Below, one piece after another: positions 9,437 through 17,863 of a stretch of 64,000 nt of DNA. Position 1 is the first letter of the stretch, and every line of letters begins with the position of its first letter. A program made the position numbers and the translations under genes. This DNA comes from Paenibacillus polymyxa (lineage in GTDB: Bacteria; Bacillota; Bacilli; Paenibacillales; Paenibacillaceae). The DNA lies in assembly GCF_018614975.1 (NCBI RefSeq), contig NZ_JAGGNR010000016.1, positions 62,001 to 126,000 of the forward strand. Reading direction: 5' to 3'. The notes beneath the pieces are model-generated. The model saw nothing but the letters and a program-made list of their open reading frames with translations. It was not told where the DNA came from and made no database searches.

Positions 9437-11626
9437 CTATGCGTGAAGTACAACTTCACTGCTTACGTTTTCGTTCTCCGTGGTGCGATGCATCAGGAAA
9501 TACGTTAAGGTTCCTCCAAGACCAATCACGGCAAAGATGCACAGAATACCGATCTGATCCCAAGCCACACCGAACTGTCCACTTGAGATGACTGCTTTAT
9601 AACCTGTTACCGAATATGTCATAGGCAGCCATGGATTAAACACTTTCAGCCAATTTGGAATTAGTTCGAGCGGGAAGGTGCCCGCGCTGGTGGTGAGCTG
9701 GAAGATCAGCATGAGAATCGCGAGGAATCGACCCGGGTTCTCCAACCAAGTCACCAGTGCCTGAATGATGTACATGAAGCTTAGACTGGTAACAAAGCTG
9801 AACAAGAGGAACAATGGAACGCTCTGAACATCCAGACCCAAGCCATACAAGACCAGCCATGAAGCAAGCAGGGACTGTACAGCACTCATGAGCGTGAAAG
9901 CCAGCGTTTTACTCACAAAACGATTCCAGCCACTTGCCTCGCTAACTGTGCTGCCGCGTGTTGGGACTACCAAAGTGGCGATCAATGCCCCGACAAACAG
10001 CCCGAGTGACAGGAAGTATGGCGAAAATCCTGTACCATAGTTAGGTACCTCATTATATTTATGCTCATTGACCTGAACAGGCTCTGCATACATCGTTACC
10101 AGTTCATCGGTCTTTTTCACATTCCCCGTCTGCTCGGCCGCTTCATTCAGCTTGGTGGCAAGTTCGCCAGATCCGTCCGTTAACTTCAGCGTACCTTCTT
10201 TTAACTGACCAGCACCGTCATCGAGCTTATGTGAGCCATCTGCAAGGGTTGAGATGCCGTCTGTAAGCTGGCTTACACCGGCAACCAGCTTGCCTGCACC
10301 AGCATTCAATTGACCTGAACCATCCGCAAGTTTGGCTCCTCCAGCGGCTGCTTCGGATAATTTGGAATTGAATTGTTGTAGACCAGTGGCAAGCTTTTCT
10401 TGTCCGGCGGATAACTGCGTGGCACCCTGTACCAGTTGTTGTTCCCCCTGCACCAACTGGCTGCTGCCTTGATGGAGTTGCTGCTGTGCAGCGTACAGGT
10501 TTTGGCTGCCTGCGACCAACTGCTGTCCGCCCTGATACACTTGTTCACTGCCAGCGGCTACGGCCTGACTGGCTGCCAAAAGCTGCTGTACAGCTGGACT
10601 TGCGGCCAGTTCCGGACTCGCTTCGGCTAATTGGGCAAGACCTTGCGCAACCGCTTTGGCACCCTTGCTAACTTTGCCACTGCCCTCAACAGAACTTTGC
10701 AGCCCAGCAGTCAGCTTTGCACTGCCTTCCTCGGAAGCCGCCAGTCCTGCATCCAGCTTGGCTGCGCCTTCCTGAGCAGATTGAAGGCCAGCTTGTAGCT
10801 GTTTGCTGCCTGTTTCGGCCTGGGTTGCTCCATCACCAAGCTTTGTGCCTGCTGCTGCCAATTGGGACAGCCCATTGGACAGGGCGCTTGCGCCAGTATG
10901 AAGATCACCTATGCCTTGAGCGAGGGTAGATGTACCTTCTTTTAACGGAACTACGCTCGTTTCGAGCTTGTCGGTGCCTGCCGCCAGTTTGGACAGGTTC
11001 TCATTTAATGTAGCAGCACCCTCATCCAGCTTAATCGCACCATCACGGATCTGACCTGCTCCATCCCCGGCATCCGCCAAACCACCAGAGATTTTTTCGA
11101 CCTGATCCAGTAACGTTTCGGTATACGACTCAGTTACTTTAGCGGAGACTTTGGAGCGAATTTGTTTGACCGCCGTACCGCCGATCTGACCTGCGAGGAA
11201 GTTGTATCCTTCATTGGGTTCATAGATCAGGTCTGCCGGCTCAGGGTGCTCATCCATCAGGGTTGTGGCTTTGGTGGAAAAGTCCTCTGGAATCACAATT
11301 GTCATATAATACGTGTTGTCTTGCATACCTTGTTCTGCTTGTTCACGAGTCACGAATTGCCAGTTGAAATCTTTGCTTTTCTTCAATTCATCGACCAGAT
11401 TCTGACCGACCTCCAGTGATTTATCGTTGTAGACCGCACCCTGATCCGTGTTGACCACCGCCACAGGTAATTCATTCATTTTGCCATACGGGTCCCAGAA
11501 TGCGTTCAGGAACAGGCCGCTATACAGCACCGGAATGAACAGTACAACGAGAATCGGAATAAATACTTTTGGTTTCTTAAAGGCGGACTTCAGGTCTTGC
11601 CCAAATACGTGGAATGATTTCATCAT
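9437..11626 (-). CDS. YhgE/Pip domain membrane protein (ABC-2-like)
   Basis: A 729-residue membrane protein. One helix lies at about residues 20-42, then a long extracytoplasmic part, and about six helices in the last 200 residues (from roughly 540), the ABC-2-like layout of the YhgE/Pip (phage infection protein) family. Residues ~190-510 are an unusual low-complexity region of repeated L-x-x-G / L-A-x-G units of about 7 residues (for example SQLTDGISTLADGSHKL), predicted to form a long helical or rod-like shaft. Related proteins serve as phage receptor in Lactococcus and belong to the type VII secretion-linked EsaA/YueB group. A TetR gene lies 74 bp upstream on the same strand and probably controls it. 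Confidence 0.9.
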   Translation of the reverse strand: MMKSFHVFGQDLKSAFKKPKVFIPILVVLFIPVLYSGLFLNAFWDPYGKMNELPVAVVNTDQGAVYNDKSLEVGQNLVDELKKSKDFNWQFVTREQAEQGMQDNTYYMTIVIPEDFSTKATTLMDEHPEPADLIYEPNEGYNFLAGQIGGTAVKQIRSKVSAKVTESYTETLLDQVEKISGGLADAGDGAGQIRDGAIKLDEGAATLNENLSKLAAGTDKLETSVVPLKEGTSTLAQGIGDLHTGASALSNGLSQLAAAGTKLGDGATQAETGSKQLQAGLQSAQEGAAKLDAGLAASEEGSAKLTAGLQSSVEGSGKVSKGAKAVAQGLAQLAEASPELAASPAVQQLLAASQAVAAGSEQVYQGGQQLVAGSQNLYAAQQQLHQGSSQLVQGEQQLVQGATQLSAGQEKLATGLQQFNSKLSEAAAGGAKLADGSGQLNAGAGKLVAGVSQLTDGISTLADGSHKLDDGAGQLKEGTLKLTDGSGELATKLNEAAEQTGNVKKTDELVTMYAEPVQVNEHKYNEVPNYGTGFSPYFLSLGLFVGALIATLVVPTRGSTVSEASGWNRFVSKTLAFTLMSAVQSLLASWLVLYGLGLDVQSVPLFLLFSFVTSLSFMYIIQALVTWLENPGRFLAILMLIFQLTTSAGTFPLELIPNWLKVFNPWLPMTYSVTGYKAVISSGQFGVAWDQIGILCIFAVIGLGGTLTYFLMHRTTENENVSSEVVLHA

Positions 11627-11700
11627 GTTCTCTCCCTATCCTTACGCTCATCCATTTGTTCTATCTCTATTATGTGTTGAGTCTGGTGGCATGCCTTTCT

Positions 11701-12279
11701 CTAGGTAGGGGATAAGCCATTCTTGAGAAAGAGGCCCATAAAATCCTTGATCTGATCCTTGTGCAGCGTAGGATGCGTTTTGTTCCAATCCGAGGTTAAG
11801 GTGACATACAGCTTCAGCAGGACAAAAGAAACCAGCTTGGGATCGTCCCTGCGAATCTGCTCTAATTCCATGGCACGGCTGACCTGACGCTCCAGATATT
11901 CGAGAATGGCTGTCTCCACTTTCTGTAAACCTTCCTTGGCCTGCGGCGTACCGAACTCGTTAACCTCCTGGAAGAGCTTGATCAACAGCTCATGTTCCTC
12001 ACGGTATTCCAGCAAAGAATCCATGCTCATATGCACGTTATCCAGAAAGGAGTTCTCTTCCTTCACCGACTGCTCTGTAATCTGTCTCATATCCGTAATG
12101 ATCGAGCGCAGAATCTCGCTGAACAGTTCCTCTTTATTTTCGAAAAAAGTATAGATCGTTCCCTTGCCCACATTGGCAAGTCTCGCAACCTGCTCCATCG
12201 TTGTGGCTTTGTAACCAAACAGGGCAAAGGATTTCTCGGCAGAATCCATCACCTGTTGCCTTCGATCTATCGTTTTCAT
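11701..12279 (-). CDS. TetR/AcrR family transcriptional regulator
   Basis: 192 residues. The N-terminal TetR helix-turn-helix is clear: RRQQVMDSAEKSFALFGY, then TTMEQVARLANVGKGTIYTFF, followed by a variable ligand-binding domain. The start follows a perfect AAGGAGGTG site 8 bases upstream. It precedes the YhgE/Pip gene in the same direction, so it probably represses that gene and itself. The inducer is not known. The upstream region has a short T/A-rich inverted arrangement around 12320-12365 (TGACCGATTTACTATTGTGGTCA), a possible operator. Confidence 0.9.
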   Translation of the reverse strand: MKTIDRRQQVMDSAEKSFALFGYKATTMEQVARLANVGKGTIYTFFENKEELFSEILRSIITDMRQITEQSVKEENSFLDNVHMSMDSLLEYREEHELLIKLFQEVNEFGTPQAKEGLQKVETAILEYLERQVSRAMELEQIRRDDPKLVSFVLLKLYVTLTSDWNKTHPTLHKDQIKDFMGLFLKNGLSPT

Positions 12280-12319
12280 GGTATGTACACCTCCTTGTAG
12301 ATAGAAATGGTAAATGGTA

Positions 12320-12360
12320 AGATAAGTTCTTTATTGACCGATTTACTATTGTGGTCAGTT
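12320..12360. promoter_or_regulatory. Possible TetR operator upstream of the TetR/Pip operon
   Basis: TTGACCGA...TGGTCAGTTGGTC: TGACC near 12335 and GGTCA near 12354 form a short inverted repeat 14 bases apart, with a second GGTC behind. It sits in the promoter region of the TetR gene. The evidence is only this symmetry and location. Confidence 0.35.
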
Positions 12361-12471
12361 GGTCGTTAACAACTGTAGCACTTGAACAGGGGAGGTGGAT
12401 GTGATCTTTCTCATAAACGGATGGAACAGGTGCAAATGTGATGCTCACATTCCTGCGATCGTTACATTAAT

Positions 12472-13113: not shown

Positions 13114-13995
13114 ATGCTAAGCCAATTAGATGGAAAATATATGTATTCGTTTTTAAAAACATATGAGCAACGAAATATAAGCAAGGCTTCTATTCAATTA
13201 GGTTACTCCCAATCTACGGTTACCAACCATATTCATATTCTTGAAGAGTTATTAAATGTACAATTGTTTCACAGAACGATCAACGGTGTAGTTCCAACCG
13301 ATAAAGGAGAAATATTTGCAAAATATGCTCGAACATTTGAGCAACTAACACAAGAGCTATATGATGAAATTAATGAGATTAGCGGTATCGTTAAAATTAA
13401 AGCTTTGGAATCGTTCTGTGTGACCCATTTTTCCAAACCGATCGTCGATTTTTTAGAACGGTATACTACTTCAGAGATCAAATTAACAACGGGCTTTCAT
13501 CAAAGTATTATAGACGATGTAATCAATCAAAAAATCGATTTTGGTATTGCTCCTGTTGATCCTAAGCTTAATCAATTGAAGTGTACGCCTATTTTTGAAG
13601 AAGAATTTGTTTTTATTGGATCTAACCGCGTGAGCGATGAGAGGCTGTTCAGTCATGAAATTAAAGTAATTACCTTTGGTAATCATTGCATTTATCAGTC
13701 ACTGGCTAACAAGATTCTGGTCGATCAAGGCAAATTTGATTACAAAAATATTGAATACGCTAGCCTGGAAATGATTAAACAGACGGTGCTTAATGGAACG
13801 GGTATTGCATTAGTTCCCAAATGCTCAGTTGAGAATGAGTTATCCTCAAACGCACTGAAACTTTTAAAACTAGGCGATCCGATTATCATCCGTCATAATA
13901 TCATTGAATTAAAATCTAACAAAATGAACGAAATTTCAAGCTTGTTTAAAAAGTTTATAATAGAGCATTTTAACCACTTTAATCTTATAGTGTAA
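13114..13995 (+). CDS. LysR family transcriptional regulator
   Basis: About 293 residues. The N-terminal winged helix-turn-helix reads NISKASIQLGYSQSTVTNHI followed by LEELLNVQLFHRT and the GVVPTDKGEIF turn, all standard for LysR. The remaining ~200 residues form the substrate-binding-like effector domain (around residues 90-290). ATG 13114 and ATG 13105 are both possible starts; the first is chosen for its spacing from GATGGG. It is AT-richer than most of the window. It faces away from the HPP membrane protein, its likely target. Confidence 0.88.
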   Translation: MLSQLDGKYMYSFLKTYEQRNISKASIQLGYSQSTVTNHIHILEELLNVQLFHRTINGVVPTDKGEIFAKYARTFEQLTQELYDEINEISGIVKIKALESFCVTHFSKPIVDFLERYTTSEIKLTTGFHQSIIDDVINQKIDFGIAPVDPKLNQLKCTPIFEEEFVFIGSNRVSDERLFSHEIKVITFGNHCIYQSLANKILVDQGKFDYKNIEYASLEMIKQTVLNGTGIALVPKCSVENELSSNALKLLKLGDPIIIRHNIIELKSNKMNEISSLFKKFIIEHFNHFNLIV

Positions 13996-14019
13996 AATTG
14001 ATTTGTCTTCTGATCTGTA

Positions 14020-14228
14020 TGGGTAGGTGCGAACCCCAAGCTCACATGATTTCCCTGGGAGATTCGCACCTCGAAATGTGTCGAAAAGACCTTTTTTGTG
14101 ACCTTTTGGCAAACAGGTAAGTAGAATTTGTGCTGATTTTTAGCAGAAATGATGATGTAATTCTTTGGGGATATCGGAAATACGTCATAATATATGGTTT
14201 TTAGGACGTTATGACGTTCATTTCCGCT
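14020..14228 (+). promoter_or_regulatory. CRISPR leader-like sequence next to a lone repeat
   Basis: About 210 non-coding bases immediately before a single CRISPR repeat. It begins with an 8-bp inverted repeat, GGTGCGAA (14026-14033) and TTCGCACC (14063-14070), which I recall as similar to the start of leaders of type I-C arrays in Bacillota; the rest is AT-rich with T runs (such as CCTTTTTTGTGACCTTTTGG). No cas gene lies on either side: a LysR gene ends 25 bp to the left. The leader identity is inferred from position and this resemblance and was not compared against a database. Confidence 0.5.
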
Positions 14229-14261
14229 GTCACACTCCGTATGGAGTGCGTGGATTGAAAT
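14229..14261 (+). CRISPR. Solitary type I-C-like CRISPR repeat
   Basis: One 33-base unit that starts GTCACACTCCGTATGGAGTG and ends CGTGGATTGAAAT. It has the internal ACTCC/GGAGT stem and the GTGGATTGAAAT end typical of type I-C repeats. There is no second copy within the next 130 bases and no cas gene in the window, so this is a one-repeat remnant (or a minimal array) and not a working array. The orientation, leader on the left, fits normal transcription towards the right. Confidence 0.72.
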
Positions 14262-14387
14262 GAAAGAGTTAAGCCGGGGAGTACATGTCCCCCCACCCTC
14301 AAATAACACCAACACAGCCTGCCATATGTCCTCCTGGAACGGGCTTTTCGCCATGTGCAAACAAGCTCATACAAAACAATGAAATGT
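14262..14387. other. Non-coding stretch after the lone CRISPR repeat
   Basis: The 126 bases to the next gene hold no second repeat I could find, so any spacer would end in unrelated sequence. The part next to the repeat contains a short GGGGAGTACATGTCCCC hairpin (about 14276-14292). Confidence 0.4.
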
Positions 14388-15949: not shown

Positions 15950-15953
15950 AACA

Positions 15954-16000
15954 AACAAGCCGGAGGCGCAAGTTGGGCCGCACACCGGCTTGTTTTTATT
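15954..16000 (+). terminator. Rho-independent terminator after the arginase-family gene
   Basis: AACAAGCCGG (15954-15963) pairs with CCGGCTTGTT (15985-15994) and a T-rich tail follows. Confidence 0.9.
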
Positions 16001-16072
16001 TGTTAAGTTTTCATCCTGCTCGTCTGTTAAATAAATTTGCTCTTGCAATAAGCCATCATTAAAGATATATTA

Positions 16073-16100
16073 TTAATTAATTGATCATTTAATTAATTAA
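16073..16100. promoter_or_regulatory. AT-rich palindrome, likely operator of the TetR gene at 16129
   Basis: TTAATTAA repeats arranged symmetrically around TGATCA, 29 bases before the GTG start of the TetR gene. This is the usual size and position of a TetR autoregulatory site, inferred from symmetry alone. Confidence 0.5.
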
Positions 16101-16128
16101 AGTCTAGTTTAAAGAGAGGGGAATACAT

Positions 16129-16758
16129 GTGGCAAGACCTATCAATGAAGAAAAAAAACTGGAGCGTCGGAGCCGGATTCTAAAAGAAGCGGTTATCCTG
16201 TTCGCAGAAAGTGGATATTCGAATACCACAACGGCAATCATTGCGAAGCGTGTCGGAGTGACTCCCGGAACCATTTTTCAATATTTCCCTAGTAAAGAAG
16301 CTTTATTCTACGCCGCTGTCCTTGAGCCGCTTGCTGATATTCAGAAGAAATCCCTTGCTTCTCTACAACAAGAGGGGACACCGGGCCAATTGATTAAGAA
16401 CATGGTGGAAGAGCAATTCAACCATATCTACTTCTATACCAATGAATTGCGGCTTGCTCAATCTGTATTAGGACAACGAATAAGGTTCCCTGAACTTACA
16501 CAGAAGGTCCTTGAAAGTATTAAGGTAATGACCGATGAAATCGAAGATGTCTATGCCAAGGGACAGTTAATGGGGGAATTCAACAAAAGCTTTTCTCCAG
16601 CGATGATTTCTCGTGCCTATATCTCTTTTTTAAATGGAGTGGCCTTAACTCTCGGCGAAAGCATTCTTCATCATCCCGAGTGGGAAAATCTGAAGAGCCA
16701 TGCCTTTTATTTGTTCGCACCCATATCACCAATAGAAAAACTGGAGGAGTCTGAATGA
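16129..16758 (+). CDS. TetR/AcrR family transcriptional regulator
   Basis: 209 residues from a GTG start, 7 bases after an AGAGAGGGG site. The HTH reads SRILKEAVILFAESGY, then TTTAIIAKRVGVTPGTIFQYF; an alpha-helical ligand domain follows. It overlaps the next gene by four bases (ATGA), so the two are coupled: the regulator probably senses the substrate or product of the hydrolase downstream. A palindrome lies upstream. Confidence 0.92.
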   Translation: MARPINEEKKLERRSRILKEAVILFAESGYSNTTTAIIAKRVGVTPGTIFQYFPSKEALFYAAVLEPLADIQKKSLASLQQEGTPGQLIKNMVEEQFNHIYFYTNELRLAQSVLGQRIRFPELTQKVLESIKVMTDEIEDVYAKGQLMGEFNKSFSPAMISRAYISFLNGVALTLGESILHHPEWENLKSHAFYLFAPISPIEKLEESE

Positions 16759-17729
16759 GTCAAACATCATTACAACCCGATCGGACATTGAACAACGTTC
16801 GTGCGAAAAAACGGAACAAAATATTATGGAGCCTGGGAATCGTGCTTTTGCTTGTGGTGGCTCTTGTATTTTTTATATCTTACAAAGTAGTAGACACTTT
16901 GTTACACCATCCTAGAGACACAAATGTCAGCTACGAATTGAATATCGATAAAACGCCTTACGAAGAGGTTGAGTTCAAGAGTTTGAAAAATGATAATACG
17001 ATTAGAGGTACCTTTTTTCCTGCAAATGTTGGTGGTAAATCAAGCGATAAGACGATAATTGTTGTCCACGGGTATACGAGCAATCGTTTAGTCAAAGGGC
17101 GGACCCCAAAGTTAGTAGAGCATCTCGTTCCAAAAGGTTACAATGTATTGGCATTTGACCTCAGCTCGCAAGGTAAATCCGATGGTGATTTGATTACTCT
17201 GGGCCTCAATGAAAAATACGATTTGCTGGGAGCTGTAGACTATTTAAAAACAAGAGACCATACGGGTGACAACATCGGAGTTATCGGCTTTTCTATGGGG
17301 GCAGCTACTTCTTTGCTGGCCACAAGTGAAAGTGATGACATCCAAGCCGTCATTGCAGATAGTCCGTTTCGTAATGCCGGTCTGTTTCTGAGAGAGGGTC
17401 TGCCCTTCTTTTCCGGTTTACCTGCATTCCCATTCAGTTATACATCGACATGGATGGCCAATTGGGTCTATAACGTTGATCTGGATTCCGTATCTCCTAT
17501 GGATGCGGTGAAAAAGATGCAAGACAAGCCAGTTATGCTCATTCATGGTACTGGAGATCAGCAAATCAGTTATAAAAATACAGAAGTTATTTACGAATCC
17601 TTAAAAGATAATCCAAGCGCAGAAGTATGGTATCCGAAAAATACGGAGCACATCGATGCGATTAACCATTACCCCACTGAATATTTCCAAAGAGTAGATC
17701 GCTTTTTGGATGAGTATATCGGGAAATAA
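16755..17729 (+). CDS. Membrane-anchored alpha/beta hydrolase
   Basis: 324 residues with an N-terminal membrane helix at about 22-44, then an alpha/beta hydrolase of the serine aminopeptidase S33/DUF-type group. Seen: VVHGYTSN (oxyanion strand), the nucleophile elbow GFSMGAA with Ser180, an Asp in HGTGDQQISY, and a His in PKNTEHIDAI. The bulk faces outside the cell or the membrane, so a peptidase, esterase or lysophospholipase role is possible. It is cotranscribed with a TetR gene and ends at a bidirectional terminator. Confidence 0.9.
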   Translation: MSQTSLQPDRTLNNVRAKKRNKILWSLGIVLLLVVALVFFISYKVVDTLLHHPRDTNVSYELNIDKTPYEEVEFKSLKNDNTIRGTFFPANVGGKSSDKTIIVVHGYTSNRLVKGRTPKLVEHLVPKGYNVLAFDLSSQGKSDGDLITLGLNEKYDLLGAVDYLKTRDHTGDNIGVIGFSMGAATSLLATSESDDIQAVIADSPFRNAGLFLREGLPFFSGLPAFPFSYTSTWMANWVYNVDLDSVSPMDAVKKMQDKPVMLIHGTGDQQISYKNTEVIYESLKDNPSAEVWYPKNTEHIDAINHYPTEYFQRVDRFLDEYIGK

Positions 17730-17796
17730 ATTCAATCCAGGAGAGCTGACGAGTAGAAGGGCTTTCTGACGAAGTGGTAACACCTTAATATCAAAT

Positions 17797-17839
17797 AAAA
17801 TCAGCCTATAGTGTGGAAAACCACTATAGGCTGATTTTA
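17797..17839. terminator. Bidirectional terminator between hydrolase and chemoreceptor genes
   Basis: AAAATCAGCCTATAGTG (17797-17813) pairs with its complement ending in TTTT at 17839; A and T ends on both sides serve both convergent genes. Confidence 0.9.
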
Positions 17840-17863
17840 CATAGAAAAACAGTTATGACTAAA

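Follow-up and report, generated by a model that had tools for sequence, protein, structure and literature searches.

Gene content of the locus and structure of the leader-repeat unit

The window, by which we mean the whole analysed stretch of 64,000 nucleotides from Paenibacillus polymyxa, contains a short leader-repeat unit. On the left, a TetR regulator gene and a gene for a YhgE/Pip-like membrane protein, the latter named from its sequence, occupy 9438-12416 on the minus strand and border an intact type I-C locus in relatives. They are followed by an HPP-family membrane protein gene (PF04982; 12472-12996, minus strand), which lies within the former CRISPR locus, and a LysR-type regulator gene (PF03466/PF00126; 13105-13995, plus strand) at the position of cas2. 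On the right are the downstream neighbour of the lost array, a CGNR zinc-finger gene (PF11706; 14388-14966, minus strand), an arginase-family gene (PF00491; 15044-15949, plus strand), the tail of which is also found behind the array of the congener G036, and genes for a TetR regulator and an alpha/beta hydrolase (15951-17843, plus strand), which border the intact type I-C locus in G041, G055 and G073 with 88-90% identity. The TetR-hydrolase pair (16129-17726) has a second copy in the genome at C1:40362-42032 with 82% identity, and fragments of it occur on C41.

The unit itself (14026-14261) comprises an entire type I-C leader and, behind it, a single 33-bp repeat with no spacer. The LysR stop codon is at 13995, about 25 bp before the start of the region in the preliminary description, as had been claimed there. 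The repeat GTCACACTCCGTATGGAGTGCGTGGATTGAAAT is at 14229-14261 on the plus strand, with the ACTCC/GGAGT stem as well as the GTGGATTGAAAT end attributed to it, and is the sole match in the window at up to 3 mismatches (shuffled controls 0/100). No second repeat exists in the 64 kb, and the 16-bp repeat end matches only once at 3 mismatches. In leader orientation the type I-C family repeat reads GTCGCAC...GTGCGTGGATTGAAAT; the window repeat matches 32 of the 33 bases of the repeats in arrays of Cas8c-bearing genomes, carrying GTCA for GTCG, one base off the consensus, a change by which the outermost stem pair of the repeat is lost. This one base aside, the 33-mer also occurs in arrays of several relatives, and the repeat as a whole matches many type I-C arrays. 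A CRISPR array consists of at least two repeats with unique spacers between them; since the window unit has only one repeat, it is a relic and not an array. Neither the region nor the window as a whole matched a known RNA family in Rfam, and the 62 bases 3' of the repeat, compared with phage sequences in case they were an orphan spacer, gave no match. A 155-aa open reading frame on the minus strand (13893-14360) crosses the repeat and includes ISIHALHTEC, the translated type I-C repeat; open reading frames that read through such repeats, here and at L004, are translation artefacts and not genes.

The far end of the leader is formed by a 45-bp motif at 14026-14070 (plus strand, exact motif match), whose inverted repeat GGTGCGAA/TTCGCACC is present as first described, with a chance expectation of 0. 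It is followed on the same strand by a second conserved box, GTGACCTTTTGGCAA(A)CAG at 14098-14116, common to most leaders of the genus and here with one A more than in the nearest orthologue; by a leader-end inverted repeat at 14182-14217, read in the sequence, with arms ACGTCATAA (14182-14190) and TTATGACGT (14209-14217); and by the leader end CGCT at 14225-14228. The architecture of the leader-end inverted repeat recurs in related leaders with different arm sequences, and these differences might be arm-to-arm covariation. The 45-bp motif, the TTTTGGCAA box and the CGCT end, at a spacing among those observed, are shared with functional type I-C arrays. With these elements and the leader-end inverted repeat, the leader keeps the normal docking architecture.

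Cas machinery and type I-C repeats in the genome

Searches of the 6.57-Mb genome (completeness 100) gave no match to Cas1 (PF01867), Cas5 (PF09704) or Cas8c (PF09709), so that the Cas8c signature, Cas5 and Cas1 of a type I-C system are all missing, although the assembly is a draft of 67 contigs and the absence of a cas operon is therefore not absolute. Only two type I-C repeats were found in the whole genome, one in the window and one on contig 10, and each is solitary. In the genus, Cas8c is encoded by 28 of 75 congener genomes, most of which carry 30-138 type I-C repeats each; the 47 Cas8c-negative congeners have a median of 0, with 1-41 repeats in 15 of them; a strict repeat pattern used here leaves out the window repeat, which starts with GTCA. 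Genomes without Cas8c have far fewer type I-C repeats (Mann-Whitney p about 1e-10, 75 congeners), a p value that is descriptive only, since the species are not independent.

The second unit, at C10:55187-55422, has the same leader motif and a single repeat at C10:55187-55219. Its position corresponds to an orthologous orphan-array site that lies between the same genes and holds 3-9 repeats in eight relatives (9 in G036; 6 each in G011, G050 and G066; 5 in G053; 4 in G041; 3 in G010 and G069). At this site only the leader motif is present in G021 and G055, and at least four further relatives, G035, G054, G020 and G073, showed no recognisable repeat; G035 has the sequence that directly follows the single repeat of contig 10, at 94%, and a leader was not detected there. 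The contig-10 leader has an altered TTTTGGCAA box and an altered end (TCTCT).

An intact type I-C locus at the orthologous position in relatives

Four congeners, G036, G041, G055 and G073, carry an intact type I-C locus at the position orthologous to the window unit. In G041, G055 and G073 the left and the right flank of the window both enclose this locus, which is ordered as leader A with its array, the cas operon, and leader C with its array; G041 and G055 have an additional leader between the leader A array and the operon. The G036 operon, cas3-cas5-cas8c-cas7-cas4-cas1-cas2, is complete, and all seven of its proteins score above the cut-offs of the NCBIfam cas models. There cas2 stops 2 nt before the leader C motif, in agreement with the expectation that cas2 belongs where the LysR gene of the window ends, and a CGNR remnant directly follows the last repeat of the array, followed in turn by an arginase remnant (a 58-bp match to the arginase tail). 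The order cas2, leader, array, CGNR remnant and arginase remnant in G036 parallels LysR, leader, repeat, CGNR and arginase in the window. The window leader is about 74% identical to leader C of G036, no closer than to leaders elsewhere, and the assignment of the unit to array C follows from gene order and from the orthologue in G066, not from leader similarity. What relatives have at this site is a CRISPR locus, not the unrelated hairpin element that the preliminary description had considered as the opposite outcome.

The other end of the locus has left a trace as well. Directly behind the left flank, at 12429-12450 (plus strand), is a 22-bp stump, GGTGCAAATGTGATGCTCACAT. It corresponds to the left half of the leader A motif and differs from the intact loci by 1 mismatch, no such match being expected by chance; in an alignment it falls in line with leader A of both G041 and G066 and with the scar of G051. 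In G066 the same HPP and LysR genes are present, 93% identical to those of the window and missing from the intact loci at the orthologous position. Leader A is still there in G066 and has two repeats; G066 also has an orthologue of the window leader and, at the right border, three leftover repeats with the trailer of the intact loci. Its orthologous leader is more decayed, a deletion of 15 bp at the end having removed the right arm of the leader-end inverted repeat, and the first repeat behind it is damaged. In G051 the flanks are about 92% identical and everything between them is gone except for the same leader A stump, 20-30 bp long, at about 12340-12410 of L132. G051 was considered as an ancestral empty site, which is ruled out by the stump, and its locus is a deletion scar. 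Intact loci (G036, G041, G055 and G073), G066, the window and G051 form, in this order, a decay series at one orthologous site.

Distribution and spacing of the 45-bp leader motif

An exact search of public genomes found the 45-bp motif in six named Paenibacillus species, each time before multi-repeat type I-C arrays. At up to 3 mismatches it is present in 20 of the 75 genomes of the genus, and across the family a looser pattern matches 124 of 396 genomes, which represent 12 of 19 genera; the reversed control pattern matches none. Type I-C repeats lie downstream of the motif in 27 of 28 loci taken from the family-wide search and, in all but a few of the loci checked, at 123-159 bp from it. Because it recurs across 12 of the 19 genera with type I-C repeats behind 27 of the 28 loci, the 45-bp inverted repeat is a real feature of type I-C leaders and is widespread in Paenibacillaceae. 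A text search of the literature returned no paper on Paenibacillus type I-C leaders, and the motif may nevertheless have been described earlier. Another relic, L030 (G074 C11:348781), lies in a genome that has kept Cas8c; it has the 45-bp motif, and its leader is shortened and its repeat degraded. In G003, a single cas operon is surrounded over about 30 kb by at least six type I-C leaders, all pointing the same way and with separate arrays (L133-L134, C2:160000-199999).

The distance from the motif to the first repeat is 158 bp at both the window and the contig-10 unit. Among 56 distinct leaders it falls into the classes 123-124, 135-139, 145-148 and 154-159 bp, with three exceptions (two at 128 and one at 162); the resultant is 0.73 at a period near 10.75 bp, a regularity whose significance is overstated by a test against a uniform null, as the leaders share ancestry and represent few independent length changes. 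At loci from other genera of the family the spacing is 123-127 bp in 21 of 24 and 136-137 bp in 3 of 24. A protein complex that must face both sites would be expected to leave steps of about one helical turn, and the discrete spacing suggests helical phasing of a putative integrase-docking element. Phased leader motifs were reportedly the subject of a 2021 study in Current Biology, and a paper in Nucleic Acids Research is said to deal with repeat-derived regulatory elements. In type I-F systems the leaders are folded by IHF and the integrase makes contacts at conserved inverted-repeat motifs (PMC12259127). A bolder and rather unlikely proposal would be that type I-C leaders of Paenibacillaceae possess a dedicated 45-bp docking element stepping by about one helical turn, and that spacer-free units of this geometry, as are both units described here, are competent landing pads on which an incoming cas operon could restart immunity at once.

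Origin of the unit and alternative explanations

The window feature is very probably what remains of the array next to cas2 in a type I-C system lost from this lineage: its leader and its last surviving repeat. Of the two possibilities first put forward, loss of the cas operon and all spacers is the one directly supported, by the intact locus in relatives at this position, by the leader A stump and by the missing Cas1, Cas5 and Cas8c. The ancestral locus was situated between the YhgE/TetR genes and the CGNR-arginase/TetR genes, with at least two leader-array units around cas3-cas5-cas8c-cas7-cas4-cas1-cas2. Comparison with the intact loci shows that the operon and most of the first array are gone and that the gap is now taken up by the HPP and LysR genes. 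We infer that the array left behind was then reduced to one repeat, most likely through homologous recombination between identical repeats; such recombination deletes whole spacer-repeat units and so naturally stops at one repeat behind the leader, and loss of the spacers by another deletion route would give an identical product. As Cas1 is missing, the array would not be refilled, and with neither Cas1 nor Cascade the unit should be able neither to acquire spacers nor to make a working guide RNA; in the absence of Cascade any transcript of it would lie idle. It is probably drifting. The intact-looking leader indicates recent loss or weak constraint, a near-intact leader and repeat being also expected under purifying selection; drift is indicated by the one-base substitution in the stem of the repeat and by the changed boxes in the leader on contig 10.

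The other possibility first raised was that the unit is a minimal array which a distant adaptation system could still use. It would then be kept without spacers as a landing pad, and a transferred type I-C adaptation module would dock on the leader and insert the first spacer. Such a role would suit the leader motifs and the 158-bp distance, one of the observed classes, which are intact at both loci, and also the retention at both of exactly one repeat, the minimum that an integrase needs. However, repeat recombination would also be expected to end in a single repeat, and the genome encodes no Cas1, which leaves use by a distant adaptation system unsupported here and conceivable only once cas genes have been regained. 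The changes are moreover drift-like, the window repeat being short of a stem pair and the contig-10 unit having a changed TTTTGGCAA box and end (TCTCT), and relatives decay further at the contig-10 site, to no repeat at all. We consider maintenance as a landing pad decidedly improbable.

Two further explanations have next to no probability in our view. The solitary repeat might yield a crRNA-like regulatory RNA as in CreTA modules, since its leader is of the usual type and since degenerate minimal CRISPRs of one or two repeats have been described as CreA genes (PMC8501985, PMC9458426). CreA, however, works with Cascade, and neither Cas5 nor Cas8c was found in this genome, so that the resident Cascade of such a module is missing; there is no second degenerate repeat either, and the position is that of an ordinary array in relatives. 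It is just as hard to credit that the leader and repeat are a mobile unit inserted behind the LysR gene independently of a former cas locus. Genomes do have type I-C leaders at several sites each, often immediately after a stop codon, yet the unit occupies the place of the array in the orthologous intact type I-C locus, with the same genes behind it, the leader A stump marks the other end of the lost locus, and G066, which also has the HPP and LysR genes, has a leader there and not an empty site. A mobile-element reading of the leader-repeat units was rejected on this synteny.

CRISPR-Cas loss is common, and intermediates are seldom caught; the value of this locus lies in a clean decay series at one orthologous site and in the conserved leader element. 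One-repeat relics are marks of past immunity, which they could in principle restart. A conserved and apparently phased type I-C leader element, with a candidate role in spacer integration, also emerges from the comparison, in bacteria in which IHF is not expected.

Comparison with known CRISPR systems

The window feature is a relic rather than a new system, and CRISPR relics are an ordinary kind of feature, of which this one is unusually well documented. With the type I-C locus of G036 it shares the chromosomal position, the leader motifs, the 33-bp repeat except for one base, and the downstream genes; it differs in having neither cas genes nor spacers and one repeat only, and in the replacement of the operon by the HPP and LysR genes. 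Like orphan CRISPR arrays, it has a leader and a repeat that belong to a known subtype, and cas genes are missing from its surroundings. The orphan arrays of congeners such as P. barcinonensis and P. xylanexedens are of the same kind but multi-repeat, whereas the window unit lacks a repeat pair, and CRISPR finders that need at least two repeats are thus expected to miss it. CreTA and minimal CRISPR modules (PMC8501985) resemble it in having very few repeats outside a regular array and differ in their degenerate repeats, their adjacent, Cascade-repressed toxin RNA gene and a resident Cascade, of which none was found in this genome.
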